Shown: positions 6,607 through 12,122 of the stretch, piece after piece
Position numbering within the stretch: the first letter of the stretch is position 1
Layout: every line of letters begins with the position of its first letter
Assembly (NCBI RefSeq): GCF_041821085.1
Contig: NZ_JBGUAZ010000002.1
Location: 434,001 to 498,000, forward strand
Direction of reading: 5' to 3'
Length of the DNA: 64,000 nt
Source of the DNA: Natrinema sp. HArc-T2
Lineage (GTDB): Archaea; Halobacteriota; Halobacteria; Halobacteriales; Natrialbaceae
Translations under genes and position numbers: made by a program
Notes under the pieces: model-generated
Seen by the model: only the letters and a program-made list of their open reading frames with translations
Databases searched by the model: none
Told to the model about the DNA's origin: nothing

Positions 6607-7674
6607 ATGGATCTGGGGGCGTTTTTCAAGAAGGAGTGGTTCCAGTTTCGCCGAAACATCGGCGTCATCTTGATCGTGCTTGTTCTGCTACCGGGGGCGG
6701 CCGCGATGGGGACTGCGGCGTTTCAACAGACGATCCCCGAAGACGTTCCGATCGGTATCGCAGCCCAAGACGAGACTGTTGCCGAGACGGACATGGCGAC
6801 GATTCAGGCCGGGACGGCACTGTACGCGTCGCCGAGCCGATACGATTCTCGAGCGGCAGCCGAGAAGGCACTCGAACGCGAGGACGTGTATCTGGTGCTT
6901 TTGGTCCCGAACGACACGTTCGAAGAGAGGGCAGATGCAAACATCACGATGATCTCCGATCAGCGTCTGGCACCGTTCCGCGAAGCGTCGAACTACACGG
7001 CCAGCGTGTTGGACTATCAGTTGGATGAGCAGCTGCCATCCGACGTGACCGTCACTCACGAACGGATCGGCGTCCAACACTCGCTGTCGGAGTATCTCAT
7101 CCCGACGGCACTGTTGCTCGTGGTGGTCCTGTACGCGTTCGTTTACTTCCCGTTCGAACTGTACCGGGAGCGGGACGTGTTCGAACGTGTCGAACTCCAG
7201 TCCCGGATCGAGACTGCCGTTCTCGCGAAAATCGCGTTTCACTCGCTTTTGCTCATCATCCCGCTGACCGTGTTCCAACTGGTCAGTCTCTCTGCCGGGT
7301 ACCGACTGTCACATTTCAACCCCTACACGATCGCGGTGATCGCCGTGACTTTCGTCTATCTCACGTCGATCGGGGGCCTGATCATGTTCCTGTCGAAACT
7401 GCGGCGGACTGGGATCTACCTCAATATCGGGGTCATGACCGGCATCCTCGCGCTCTCGAGTTTCGTCTTCCCGGTCGGCTTTTTCTCCTCGGTTCGCAAG
7501 ACGATCGCGCTGACGTTGCCAACCTATCACTCGATGGTGATGGTACGCAGTACGATGATGAAGGGGGTGTCACTTGCCCTGTTCAGTCCGCGGTTCGAAC
7601 TCCTCGTCGGCTTCACCGTCGTGATGGGGGTACTCTTACGAGCGAGCATCAACTACTATCGACGAGCGAAATAA
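6607..7674 (+). CDS. ABC-2 type transporter permease
   Basis: A 355-residue integral membrane protein of the ABC-2 exporter type. There is one N-terminal segment (about residues 18-38), a large extracytoplasmic domain of about 140 residues, and then five C-terminal segments beginning near residue 163 (YLIPTALLLVVVLYAFVYF). This one-plus-five layout is characteristic of NatB/YhgE-like permeases. Its partner ATPase starts 8 bases after the stop, so the two form an exporter operon. The substrate is unknown. A divergent membrane protein lies upstream and a secreted PKD protein downstream on the opposite strand, suggesting a cell-envelope role by context only. Confidence 0.82.
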   Translation: MDLGAFFKKEWFQFRRNIGVILIVLVLLPGAAAMGTAAFQQTIPEDVPIGIAAQDETVAETDMATIQAGTALYASPSRYDSRAAAEKALEREDVYLVLLVPNDTFEERADANITMISDQRLAPFREASNYTASVLDYQLDEQLPSDVTVTHERIGVQHSLSEYLIPTALLLVVVLYAFVYFPFELYRERDVFERVELQSRIETAVLAKIAFHSLLLIIPLTVFQLVSLSAGYRLSHFNPYTIAVIAVTFVYLTSIGGLIMFLSKLRRTGIYLNIGVMTGILALSSFVFPVGFFSSVRKTIALTLPTYHSMVMVRSTMMKGVSLALFSPRFELLVGFTVVMGVLLRASINYYRRAK

Positions 7675-7681
7675 TCACAGT

Positions 7682-8473
7682 ATGACATCTCAACGGGGCC
7701 GATCGGACAGCGACGACGGTGGAGCCAGCGACTACTACAGCCACGACATCGACCCGGCGCTCCTCGCGGAGAAACTCCCGGACGATGTCGCCCCGCTGAC
7801 GCTCCACGACGTGACGAAACGATACGGCGCGCTGGACGCGCTTCGTGACGTGACGTTCGAGGTAGCGCCCGGCGAATTTCACTGTCTGGCAGGGCCGAAC
7901 GGCTCGGGAAAGACGACTCTGGGAAAGATCGCGGCGGGACTGACACGACCGACGAGCGGGGAGGCGATCCTTCCGGAGCAGTCGGTCGGGTTCGGGTTTC
8001 AGGACCCGCGATTTTACCCGGACCTTACGGTACGGGAAAACGTCGCGGTGTTCTGCGAGACGGCAGCCGTCTCCCCCGAGAGCGAGTGGGTCACGGCGAT
8101 CCTCTCGACGCTTCGGCTGACGCAGGTCGACCAGCAGGCCGCTTCGGAACTGTCCGGCGGTTTCAAGAAGAAACTGGACCTGGCCATCGCGATGTTGGAT
8201 GCGCCGCCGTATCTGTGGCTGGACGAACCGTTGACCGACATCGACGACGTGTCCGTCCAACGGGTCGTCTCGCTGCTTGATCTGTACGCGAGTGCCGGCG
8301 GTGGCGTCGTCGTCTCGACGCACAACATGGCCGCGTTCGACGATGCGTTGACGCATCTGACCGCGTTCCTCGACGGCGATTCCTCCGATACCGCCGTGCT
8401 ATCAGACTCCGAGTCGCTGTCGACCGAGGCGTTGTATCAGACGCTGGTCGACGGATTGCGGTCGTCAGCTTGA
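7682..8473 (+). CDS. ABC transporter ATP-binding protein
   Basis: A 263-residue ATPase that powers the permease encoded just upstream. The Walker A motif GPNGSGKT is at residues 71-78, a Q-loop glutamine is near residue 107 (GFGFQDPRF), the signature LSGGFKKKL at about 157-165, Walker B YLWLDEP at about 177-183, and the H-loop histidine in VVSTHNMAAF near residue 219. All catalytic motifs are intact. About 35 acidic residues precede the ABC domain, longer than usual for the family. The start at 7682 is the only ATG close to the permease stop. Confidence 0.88.
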   Translation: MTSQRGRSDSDDGGASDYYSHDIDPALLAEKLPDDVAPLTLHDVTKRYGALDALRDVTFEVAPGEFHCLAGPNGSGKTTLGKIAAGLTRPTSGEAILPEQSVGFGFQDPRFYPDLTVRENVAVFCETAAVSPESEWVTAILSTLRLTQVDQQAASELSGGFKKKLDLAIAMLDAPPYLWLDEPLTDIDDVSVQRVVSLLDLYASAGGGVVVSTHNMAAFDDALTHLTAFLDGDSSDTAVLSDSESLSTEALYQTLVDGLRSSA

Positions 8474-8578: not shown

Positions 8579-11332
8579 TTAGCGACACATCTTGCGTACG
8601 GCGACGCTACTTGCGCCGAGAGCGATTGCGATGAGCACGCTGACGGGACCGAATCCGGGTGTGCTTTCGCTCGTTTCGTCGTCAGTCACCGTCACCGAGA
8701 TCGGTTCGATCGATGTCTGCTGGATATTCGACTGATTGCCGTAGTAGTAGGCCGACTGTGCGCTGATATCGTAGTCACCGGGTTCGTTGAACCGCATTCG
8801 GACTCGTAGCGACTTTTGTTCGCCGCCGGAGACGGTGACGAAGCCGGTCGAGCTCCGACTTTCTACACTCCCGCCTTCGACGCTGGCGATCGACACGCCG
8901 GTCGACGGCAGATCCAGTTGTAAGCGTGCGTCGACAGACCGATCCGGAATGTTGTTCGTCACGCTATAGGTAACGACAGCCGTCTCTCCTGCTTTGACTG
9001 TTTCGAGATTCGATGTCAGTTCGAACGAGGCGTCGGGATCGACTGTGACCACGCGCGATGTCTCACTCGTGATACCATCTGTGTTGGTCGCGGTTACTGT
9101 TACCCTATGCTCGCCGGAATTCTCGAAGATGTGTGTGATTTCTGCCCCTTTCTTGTCGGTGATGCCGTCACCATCAACGTCCCACTCGTACTGGTCAATA
9201 TTGTCAGTGGAATGTGCCTTGAGCCGGACGGACGACCCTGCAATTGGTTCTGCAGGGTCGGCAGTGATCTCTGCTGATGGCGTCGGGTACACGGTGACCG
9301 TCTCCGACCGTTCGACACGATGGCCCGTATCGTCGACGACAATCAGCGTCACCTCGTGGCGACCGAGGTTCGAGAACGACCGTTCGATCGACTTGCCCCG
9401 TTTAGTTTTGCCGTCACTGAACTGCCAGATATAATTAGTTATCGTGCCGTCTGCATCGGTTGAACTGCCCGCATCGAAGGTGACGGGACGGTTTTGGCCG
9501 GCGGTGCTGGTAGAGATATCCAATTCAGGTTCTGGTGGTAGACTTACCGGAACCGTTGTCGTAGTCGTCGAACTGACGCCACCGTTGTCTGTCACTCTGA
9601 GACTGACCCTGTGACTGCCCGCGGAGTTGTAGGTGATTGTCGTCGTTTGACCGGCGCTGGCGTCGGTGTAATCGTCGTAATCGCCGTCACCATCGGTGTC
9701 CCACTCGTAGGACATGATCGTTCCGTCAGGATCGCTCGAGCCACTGGCATCGAGAGTGATCGCCTCGCCTGGTGTCGGTGCTGTCGGTGAGAACGTGATG
9801 TTCACCGATGGTGGTGGGTTTTCGACCGTGATCTGTTTGGTGACGGTGTCGGTCTTACCGCCGTTGTCGGTCACTTTGAGGCCGACAGTATAGGTGCCGC
9901 CGGACTCGAACGTCCCCCTTGTCGTTCGGCCGTTGTCAGCATCGTCGTAATCGTCGTAGTAGCCGTCACCATCGGTATCCCACTCGTAGGAGGTGATCGT
10001 CCCGTCAGGATCGCTCGAGTCGCTGGCATCGAGAGTGACTGCGTCGTCGGGATTCGGGGTCGAGGGTGAGGCGGTAAACGATGCAGTCGGTGCTGGGTTC
10101 TCAACAGTGATCTCTTTCCGTTTGGTTACGGTTTTGCCACCGTTATCCGTGACGCGAAGGCCGATGGTGTACGTGCCACCGCTGTCGTAGGACTCGGTAG
10201 TCGTCTCCCCGCTGGGAGCGTCATCGTAGTCGTCGTAGTAGCCGTCGCCGTCGGTATCCCATTCGTAGGACGTGATCGTCCCGTCAGGGTCACTTGAGTC
10301 ACTGGCGTCGAGCGTAATGGTATCGTCCGGATTCGGCGTCGACGGTGAGACCGTAAACGACGCAGTCGGTGCTGGGTTCTCGACGGTGATCTCCTTCCGC
10401 TTGGTTACGGTTTTCCCGCCATTGTCTTCGACGCGCAGGCCAACAGTGTACGTGCCACCGCTATCGTAGGACTCGGTAGTCGTCTCCCCGCTGGGAGCGT
10501 CATCGTAGTCGTCGTAGTAGCCGTCGCCGTCGGTATCCCACTCGTAGGAGGTGATCGATCCGTCGGGATCGCTCGAGTCGCTGGCATCGAGCGTAATACT
10601 ATCGTCCGGGTTCGGAACCGATGGCGAAAACTCGAACGTCGCTGTTGGCTCCGGATTGTCGACGGTTATCTGTTTTCTGACTGTCGTAACTGCGCCGCCG
10701 TTGTCCTCGACCCGGAGACCAACAGTGTACGTGCCGCCACTGCCGTAGGTTACAGTAGTCGTTTCCCCATTGGGTGCATCGTCGTAATCGTCGTAGTAGC
10801 CGTCACCATCGGTATCCCACTCGTAGGTGGTAATCGAGCCATCAGAATCGCTCGAGTCGCTGGCATCGAGCGTAATACTATCGTCGGGGTTCGGAACGGA
10901 CGGTGTGAACTCGAACGCTGCCGTTGGCTCCGGATTGTCGACTGTGACCTGCTTTGTCACCGTCTCGGTGTTGCCGGTATCATCGGTGATCTTGAGACCA
11001 ACAGTGTACGTGCCACCGCTGTCGTAGGACACGGTGGTCGTCTCCCCGCTGGGAGCGTCATCGTAGTCGTCGTAGTAGCCGTCGCCGTCAGTATCCCACT
11101 CGTACGAGACGATCGAACCGTTGTCGCTTGAGTCACTGGCGTCGAGCGTAATCGTCTCATCCGGATTGGGCGTTGATGGCGAGTAAGTGAACGCTGCTGA
11201 TGGCGGCGAGTCGCTGCTGGCGATGCTTGCGTGTACTGGTTCCGTCGCTATTCGTCCGCTGTCGGCGGCCCCGACCGCTACCGGTATCGCAAGCAGCAGG
11301 AGACCGGCGACGAAAAGCGTCTGTCTATTCAT
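8579..11332 (-). CDS. secreted multi-PKD protein with PGF-CTERM anchor
   Basis: A 917-residue exported protein. Residues 1-22 are a Sec signal peptide (hydrophobic LFVAGLLLLAIPVAVGA). About eight PKD domains follow. The first six repeat with a 93-residue period, and most carry a loop of the type DTDGDGYYDDYDDA, which resembles DxDxDG calcium-binding loops. Two more divergent PKD domains and a CARDB-like domain (DASFELTSNLETVKAGETAVVTYSV) come next. The C-terminus is TPGFGPVSVLIAIAL followed by a basic tail. That fits PGF-CTERM, the signal cut by archaeosortase A for lipid anchoring. It probably sits on the cell surface as an adhesin or S-layer-associated protein. Confidence 0.85.
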   Translation of the reverse strand: MNRQTLFVAGLLLLAIPVAVGAADSGRIATEPVHASIASSDSPPSAAFTYSPSTPNPDETITLDASDSSDNGSIVSYEWDTDGDGYYDDYDDAPSGETTTVSYDSGGTYTVGLKITDDTGNTETVTKQVTVDNPEPTAAFEFTPSVPNPDDSITLDASDSSDSDGSITTYEWDTDGDGYYDDYDDAPNGETTTVTYGSGGTYTVGLRVEDNGGAVTTVRKQITVDNPEPTATFEFSPSVPNPDDSITLDASDSSDPDGSITSYEWDTDGDGYYDDYDDAPSGETTTESYDSGGTYTVGLRVEDNGGKTVTKRKEITVENPAPTASFTVSPSTPNPDDTITLDASDSSDPDGTITSYEWDTDGDGYYDDYDDAPSGETTTESYDSGGTYTIGLRVTDNGGKTVTKRKEITVENPAPTASFTASPSTPNPDDAVTLDASDSSDPDGTITSYEWDTDGDGYYDDYDDADNGRTTRGTFESGGTYTVGLKVTDNGGKTDTVTKQITVENPPPSVNITFSPTAPTPGEAITLDASGSSDPDGTIMSYEWDTDGDGDYDDYTDASAGQTTTITYNSAGSHRVSLRVTDNGGVSSTTTTTVPVSLPPEPELDISTSTAGQNRPVTFDAGSSTDADGTITNYIWQFSDGKTKRGKSIERSFSNLGRHEVTLIVVDDTGHRVERSETVTVYPTPSAEITADPAEPIAGSSVRLKAHSTDNIDQYEWDVDGDGITDKKGAEITHIFENSGEHRVTVTATNTDGITSETSRVVTVDPDASFELTSNLETVKAGETAVVTYSVTNNIPDRSVDARLQLDLPSTGVSIASVEGGSVESRSSTGFVTVSGGEQKSLRVRMRFNEPGDYDISAQSAYYYGNQSNIQQTSIEPISVTVTDDETSESTPGFGPVSVLIAIALGASSVAVRKMCR
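9540..11200. repeat. tandem 279-bp repeats encoding PKD domains
   Basis: Six units with a 279-base period encode the first six PKD domains of the surface protein. The calcium-loop blocks recur near 9675, 9955, 10230, 10510, 10790 and 11070. Units near 10180-10260 and 10460-10540 are nearly identical over about 80 bases, which points to recent duplication or gene conversion. Confidence 0.85.
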
Positions 11333-11432: not shown

Positions 11433-12122
11433 TCACTTGGATGAGCGACCGACCGCCGCTGCGATCACTGCGACAAGGACGCCGAGAAGTGCCGTCATCG
11501 TGAACCCGCCAGCGAGCGCGGTGGCGTTATCTCCCTCGTCGGACTCGTTTGGCGGGGACGTTGGTTCTTCGACATCGAAGGCAAAACTCAAGCCATCGAT
11601 CTCGCGTGCCTGATCCTCGTGGCCTTCGGGCCAGTACTGGATATCCGCAGTGACGGTTTTCTCGCCGGTTTCGTCACTGTACACCTCGGCAGCGATATCC
11701 TTGATATTCGCGCCGGGATCGACGGTAAAGCGGCTAGTAACCATCCCAGCACCGCTAGAGGTGAAGTCGGACCCGCCGGAGATCGAGACGCCGCTGGGAA
11801 CGCTCATCGTGATATGGACGACGACAGGACAGTCCGCGGTGGGACTGACCTGAAACCCACCTGAGAGCCGCCCAGGACTGTCAGTCTCGACGGTCGTATC
11901 GCTTGCATGCAAACGTGCCTGTTCCATCTCTGGTTCGTCTTCTCCAGGCTCACACACGTCACCTGTGGAGTGATCGTCTGTTGTCGTCTCGTTCTCAGTC
12001 GATACGCTTGTCTGGGCAGCGACAGGTGCCGCCACCGCCCCCACGAGAAGCATCGCTACGAGCGCTGCAATGACAACGACAGAACGCGCTCTATCGGAGT
12101 CGCTATCGTCCTTCCCAATCAT
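11433..12122 (-). CDS. secreted protein with C-terminal membrane anchor
   Basis: A 229-residue exported protein. A signal peptide runs from about residue 13 to 36 (VVVIAALVAMLLVGAVAAPVAAQ, a Sec-type cleavage after AQ). A beta-rich middle region contains PVVVHITMSVPSGVSI and one cysteine pair (DVCEPG, DCPVV). An acidic spacer leads to a C-terminal hydrophobic helix ending GRSSK. The residues before that helix, AGGFTMTALLG, look like a PGF-CTERM variant in which P is replaced by G. A TTTTAAG-type box lies about 30-40 bases upstream of the start. It follows the PKD protein gene in the opposite transcriptional order, with 100 bases between. No enzyme family is recognised. Confidence 0.7.
   Translation of the reverse strand: MIGKDDSDSDRARSVVVIAALVAMLLVGAVAAPVAAQTSVSTENETTTDDHSTGDVCEPGEDEPEMEQARLHASDTTVETDSPGRLSGGFQVSPTADCPVVVHITMSVPSGVSISGGSDFTSSGAGMVTSRFTVDPGANIKDIAAEVYSDETGEKTVTADIQYWPEGHEDQAREIDGLSFAFDVEEPTSPPNESDEGDNATALAGGFTMTALLGVLVAVIAAAVGRSSK

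Follow-up and report, generated by a model that had tools for sequence, protein, structure and literature searches.

The stretch of DNA analysed here (the window) comprises 64,000 nucleotides from the haloarchaeon Natrinema sp. HArc-T2 and encodes a protein of tandem PKD domains, most of which carry a loop with the acidic core DTDGDG. An earlier note, made from the letters alone, took this loop for one of the dockerin or thrombospondin calcium kind that does not belong to a normal PKD fold, and the locus raises the question whether the loop is indeed a foreign module and, if calcium stiffens the protein, which residues would hold it. The reading argued for below, held with somewhat better than even confidence, is that of a secreted haloarchaeal stalk, probably anchored by archaeosortase A (ArtA), that is, eight ordinary PKD domains, five of them with a candidate calcium site at the linker, and a probable partner protein that has a domain, called domain X, in common with the stalk.

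The PKD array and its DTDGDG loop

The gene is a single ATG-started open reading frame of 917 aa which spans exactly positions 8579..11332 on the reverse strand (-), the strand of all features of the protein and its partner given below. Two Pfam models, PF18911 (PKD_4, 322.5 bits, cut-off 27) and PF00801 (220.6 bits, cut-off 23.5), each find eight PKD stretches in it. The observation which had drawn attention to the gene was confirmed, that is, the loop occurs in repeats 1-5 and as a variant in repeat 6; the first six PKD domains are loop-bearing as described, but the array has eight PKD domains in total. A hydrophobic stretch of residues 1-22 (11267..11332), by eye a likely signal peptide, is followed by PKD1 (10946..11224, loop 11054-11095), PKD2 (10667..10945, loop 10775-10816), PKD3 (10388..10666, loop 10496-10537), PKD4 (10109..10387, loop 10217-10258), PKD5 (9830..10108, loop 9938-9979), PKD6 (9551..9829, variant loop 9659-9700), PKD7 (9293..9550) and PKD8 (9038..9292). 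Then come domain X (8687..9025), a membrane-proximal beta-sandwich according to profiles and a model, and a probable PGF-CTERM tail (8582..8674). The sequence of this tail, TPGFG, a hydrophobic stretch and RK, fits PGF-CTERM by eye, although TIGR04126 scores 18.6 bits with the protein and 22 bits with the genome, both below the curated cut-off of 24.5. The archaeosortase A gene which the earlier note had proposed to look for was found elsewhere in the window's genome (TIGR04125, 315.9 bits, cut-off 75), and the PKD protein is probably anchored via this enzyme; of the claimed PGF-CTERM anchor, the fit by eye and the encoded ArtA stand, and the family score falls short.

Repeats 1-5 contain exactly WDTDGDGYYDDYDDA, and repeat 6 a variant. 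The loop of the first five reads DTDGDGYYDDYDDA and that of the sixth DTDGDGDYDDYTDA, whereas PKD7 has none (the short WQFSDG) and PKD8 has WDVDGDGITDK; the Dx[DN]xDG core is present as DTDGDG in six of the eight domains and as DVDGDG in one. At the DNA level, TRF gives a 279-bp tandem unit with 5.2 copies in the gene, and the loop DNA falls into two haplotypes, that of repeats 1, 3 and 4 and that of repeats 2 and 5; between the loops of repeats 2 and 3, seven synonymous differences and one non-synonymous were counted among 20 codons. Because the changes between the haplotypes are almost all synonymous, the loop amino acids are held by selection, and because these mostly synonymous differences occur within 279-bp repeats, the repetition of the loop is not a matter of chance. 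Across positions 9938-11095 the loops of repeats 1, 3 and 4 have the same or almost the same DNA, whereas elsewhere the repeats have diverged synonymously, which makes local gene conversion in the loop DNA likely; in this comparison the values for repeat 1 outside the loop are unreliable, since this repeat was compared ungapped in spite of a BC loop shorter by one residue.

As to the place of the loop in the fold, HMMER aligned WDTDGDG to WDF-GDG of ColH and of the structure 2c26 with one residue added. As far as sequence goes, DTDGDG is a longer form of the canonical PKD signature WDFGDG and no foreign insert; the best 5, 3 and 5 matches of three alignments showed the long loop in no solved PKD structure. 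An AlphaFold2 model of PKD4-5 (76 rows, mean pLDDT 94.2, pTM 0.79) has a strand-loop-strand arrangement at the loop. The model was compared by VIA and Foldseek; the best VIA match was 2c26 (Z 15.0, rmsd 1.8, 91 aligned, 40% identity), the calcium-bound ColG PKD 4aqo gave Z 13.6 and rmsd 1.8 with 86 aligned of 86, and ranks 1-10 were all PKD-containing structures. In the model, therefore, PKD4-5 is an ordinary V-set-like PKD fold.

The long loop is also widely distributed. Of 194 Halobacteria genomes, 97 matched a DNA pattern for WDxDGDG, and the figure for WDFGDG was 55 of 194, the reversed control patterns giving 2 and 0 matches overall, respectively; not every WDxDGDG match is PKD, as 3 of 19 segments from 30 class loci (L081, L082 and L096) are of another kind by eye. 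A phylum-wide search, sampling only the best-scoring PF18911 loci, gave, among 53 distinct domains, 41 with short loops and just three that have the Dx[DN]x[DN]G loop in full; the long loop is thus no general feature beyond Halobacteria. Judged by these patterns, the DTDGDG loop is a variant of WDFGDG common in Halobacteria with a lineage-specific acidic extension. The claim that it is foreign to a normal PKD fold was consequently not borne out, since it occupies the place of WDFGDG, is common in Halobacteria and is modelled as strand-loop-strand. The idea that the loop is unique to the window protein was likewise dropped, because the genome G268, which belongs to another family, has the identical WDTDGDGYYDDYDDAPSG in three repeats.

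Candidate calcium sites in the array

In the passages of PMC4356367 that concern ColG and ColH, each PKD-like domain holds one calcium, which is bound by the Asn of the linker, by the two Asp of the DxDG that precedes strand C, by the Asp of VxD, by a carbonyl of the main chain and by one water; the Asp residues of WDFGDG are described as structural, and the bound ion brings the linker between domains into line and increases stability. In the window protein, motif matching found the linker Asn, the DxDG of loop BC and VxD complete in five of the eight domains, repeats 2-6, in the forms ENPAP or DNPEP, SSDxDG and V[TE]D (DNPEP, SSDSDG and VED in PKD2). The set is incomplete in PKD1 (SSDNGS in loop BC, without the linker Asn) and PKD7 (DADG and VVDD, without the linker Asn), and PKD8 is without these motifs. 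In homologous arrays, 19 of the 29 domains that have the long loop carry the loop-BC DxDG, as do 22 of the 34 that lack it (Fisher p = 1), a count by crude motif patterns which omits the remnant in the genome G006 and domains failing the strand-F pattern. Because DxDG is equally frequent with and without the long loop, the known PKD calcium site is independent of the DGDG loop.

From the residues present, calcium is more likely to sit at the known PKD site than in the loop. The eight ordinary PKD domains would stand in line above the membrane-proximal DUF11-like domain of a secreted protein, and in repeats 2-6 the linker Asn, the two Asp of DxDG and the VxD Asp, where strand F ends, would hold calcium. 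Since these repeats carry the residues of the ColG/ColH site, the ion would fix each interdomain linker and thus make the rod stiffer. A calcium-stiffened stalk, which the earlier note had proposed, is plausible through this known site, with the ligand residues in five of eight domains and ArtA encoded in the genome, and so on grounds other than the DxDGDG loop. Against the stalk are the TIGR04126 score below the curated cut-off, the ligand motifs incomplete in three of eight window domains and in many homologous domains too, and the archaeal PKD domain compared in PMC4356367, in which, according to the same passages, two calcium ligands are missing. The calcium question thereby shifts from an eye-catching and common loop to residues with crystallographic precedent, and because the candidate ligands have this precedent, the hypothesis of a stiff stalk is directly testable in high salt.

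The DTDGDG loop, a lengthened version of the WDFGDG turn with which strand C ends, may bind a further ion or none. That it forms a second calcium site, of the integrin FG-GAP type (Dx[DN]xDGxx[DE]), at each PKD domain's far end is a tentative reading to which we give well under even chances, and its corollary of two ions at every interdomain joint of the array is held just as loosely. Of 122 Dx[DN]x[DN]G long loops, taken from all loci minus the PKD loci of the window's own genome, 105 have an acidic residue at position 9, versus 6 of 88 short loops at the matching place; moreover, the loop connects two strands in the model, and within the window protein it varies between repeats almost solely at synonymous sites. 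However, position 9 is acidic also in 18 of 22 long loops lacking the full D1-D3-D5 set (Fisher p = 0.53), and being equally frequent there, this acid may be structural. Of the 32 long loops from the closest homologues, which exclude the window protein itself, 15 have an acid at position 9, 20 at position 10, 6 at position 12 and 19 at position 13; Gly or Thr is frequent at position 9. Furthermore, D3 is replaced by Glu or Asn in the loops of G145, the homologous array of G244 is without the long loop entirely, and a term count and passages of a review on Dx[DN]xDG loops (PMC3123361) gave no mention of PKD.

Domain X and the genes around the array

One hundred bases upstream of the PKD gene and on the same strand lies a gene of 229 aa (11433..12122) which consists of a stand-alone domain X and a C-terminal hydrophobic stretch and for which no Pfam family exceeds its cut-off. 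In the PKD protein, domain X is DUF11/CARDB-like below the Pfam cut-offs (DUF11, 20.3 bits, cut-off 24.6; CARDB, 14.2 bits, cut-off 22.7). The two are joined by profile methods only, that is, by HHalign with separately built alignments (probability 90.7, E 1.2e-6) and by iterated profiles, BLASTP of the domain X against the upstream gene having given nothing useful. Domain X is modelled as a beta-sandwich (pLDDT 92.2) with complement C4, C3 and C5 as best matches (Z up to 12.7), a likeness taken as one of common fold only. A membrane-proximal DUF11-like domain common to a PKD protein and a small upstream gene is new here.

The small domain-X family occurs in 16 of 292 Halobacteria genomes, and in 13 of these 16 a PKD open reading frame lies near the small gene, the neighbourhoods covering 10-19 kb of surrounding DNA per locus, plus the window. 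The PKD protein probably works together with the small protein encoded just upstream of it, although in the DNA covered the small gene is without a PKD neighbour in three of the 16 genomes, which also counts against the stalk; of these, G040 and G090 have a domain-X partner and G163 has neither. In G090 a surface protein of 2151 aa (L112:3479-9931), in which the profile used found no PKD domain, has domain X near its C-terminus and lies beside the small domain-X gene. At the syntenic site of another genome of the genus Natrinema, G006 (L109:4648-5837), the PKD gene is reduced to a truncated, frame-broken copy, and a small partner gene did not turn up in this stretch. A tie of the PKD gene to ABC transporter genes at 6607-8473 was dropped, as these lie on the opposite strand and the one ABC component looked at resembles unrelated ABC ATPases.

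In some relatives the neighbourhood is richer. Six of the 292 genomes have a gene of the JAMM type (Prok-JAB), each of them belonging to the 16 that carry the small gene (hypergeometric p 1e-8), although the JAMM profile was built from these very loci, so that its presence there is by construction. The motif HxHP...SxxD is present in six of the seven aligned sequences, namely those which reach it. A winged-helix-like gene follows the JAMM-type gene in five of the six genomes and in the metagenome locus L011, while in the sixth, G416, the end of the contig cuts the locus off. The cluster of small domain-X protein, JAMM-type peptidase with its HxHP...SxxD intact and winged-helix-like protein recurs beside surface proteins with PKD and domain X at L162:8874-11125, L165:8530-10689, L161:8626-10875, L166:7099-9347, L167:8212-10351 and L011:7657-10017. 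In addition, a protein of Salinibaculum litoreum (L013:5504-8098) combines PKD domains and domain X with a hydrophobic stretch and, at the C-terminus, a kinase-like region; its N-terminal repeats are in another, overlapping frame of this assembly.

These neighbours allow another explanation, that the PKD array is not a stalk but the outward-facing sensor of a system that spans the membrane. It is possible but doubtful, and no less doubtful is the naming of its partners as the small domain-X protein, the JAMM peptidase and the winged-helix protein, or else a fused kinase-like domain. The confinement of the JAMM-type gene to genomes with the small gene, its conserved motif and the Salinibaculum fusion argue for it, but the profile came from loci of the same set, the kinase-like match stays under the Pfam cut-off (28.7 versus 31.7), and the profile search found no JAMM match in the window's genome, an empty answer which for a single genome proves little. 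A joint reading, in which the calcium-stiffened PKD array with domain X pairs with the small membrane-anchored domain-X protein and signals to a cytoplasmic JAMM isopeptidase and the winged-helix protein, or to a fused kinase-like domain, is unlikely; the window would then be a reduced two-gene version, and the joints might hold two calcium ions, one at the known PKD site and one at the DxDGDG turn. A limited literature search found nothing joining 'PKD domain' and 'JAMM', which says little beyond its scope. By their sequences, the recurring gene pair and the JAMM-type peptidase gene in some relatives point to an uncharacterised surface system of Halobacteria.

Surface acid and comparison with known systems

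Acidic protein surfaces are general in haloarchaea, and the aspartates of the array might be nothing but such solvating surface acid, in which case neither the loop nor any other part would hold an ion and the array would be a passive spacer. The PKD repeat region consists of 20.5% Asp+Glu and 4.0% basic residues, and this acid richness regardless of any site is also a point against the calcium stalk. However, the linker Asn, DxDG and VxD coincide with known ligand positions of ColG/ColH, and the loop pattern is strongly non-random; surface acid as the sole explanation is accordingly improbable.

The unusual hybrid repeat of the earlier note, that is, a dockerin-, EF-hand- or TSP3-like module inserted into PKD, is very improbable and was rejected: DTDGDGYYDDYDD of repeats 1-5 does match D1-D3-D5-G6-D9-D12 by eye, but HMMER puts the loop, longer by a single residue, on WDFGDG, the list of 13 Pfam families at E <= 0.1 contains none for dockerin, EF-hand or TSP3, the PKD4-5 model has no flanking helices at the loop save a three-residue turn, and position 12, required in EF-hand and TSP3, is not conserved, being acidic in just 12 of the 122 long loops and 6 of the 32 in closest homologues, which makes such a geometry unlikely. 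What the loops of the window type share with EF-hand, dockerin, TSP3 and FG-GAP loops is D1-D3-D5-G6 and, for the most part, an acidic position 9. The PKD loop differs from these Dx[DN]xDG calcium loops in that it is without a conserved position-12 acid and without a family match and forms a strand-turn-strand at the PKD signature.

The stalk, which remains the preferred reading, has its nearest counterparts among PKD domains. The PKD-like domains s2, s2a and s2b of ColG/ColH (4aqo, 4u7k and 4jgu) have, as far as the passages on them go, the fold and the linker-Asn, DxDG and VxD motifs in common with the window protein, which differs in that a long acidic turn, DTDGDGYYDDYDDA, replaces WDFGDG, in its array of eight domains and in being archaeal. 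The closest solved structure by fold, 2c26 (sequence E 4.5e-12), is the PKD domain of a Clostridium thermocellum endoglucanase, beside a carbohydrate-binding module; unlike the array, it is a lone PKD domain of an enzyme and has the WDFGDG turn. Also close are the tandem PKD proteins of other Halobacteria, those of the genomes G075 (L110), G268 (L160) and G242 (L163), which likewise have 93-residue repeats with the WDxDGDG turn and also, as in the window, domain X, a PGF tail and a small partner gene. They differ in repeat number and in the residues after DGDG, which are DYGDGYDA, YYDDYDDA and SYTEYYDD. The window protein joins these haloarchaeal tandem-PKD surface proteins, and its explanation is mostly ordinary.
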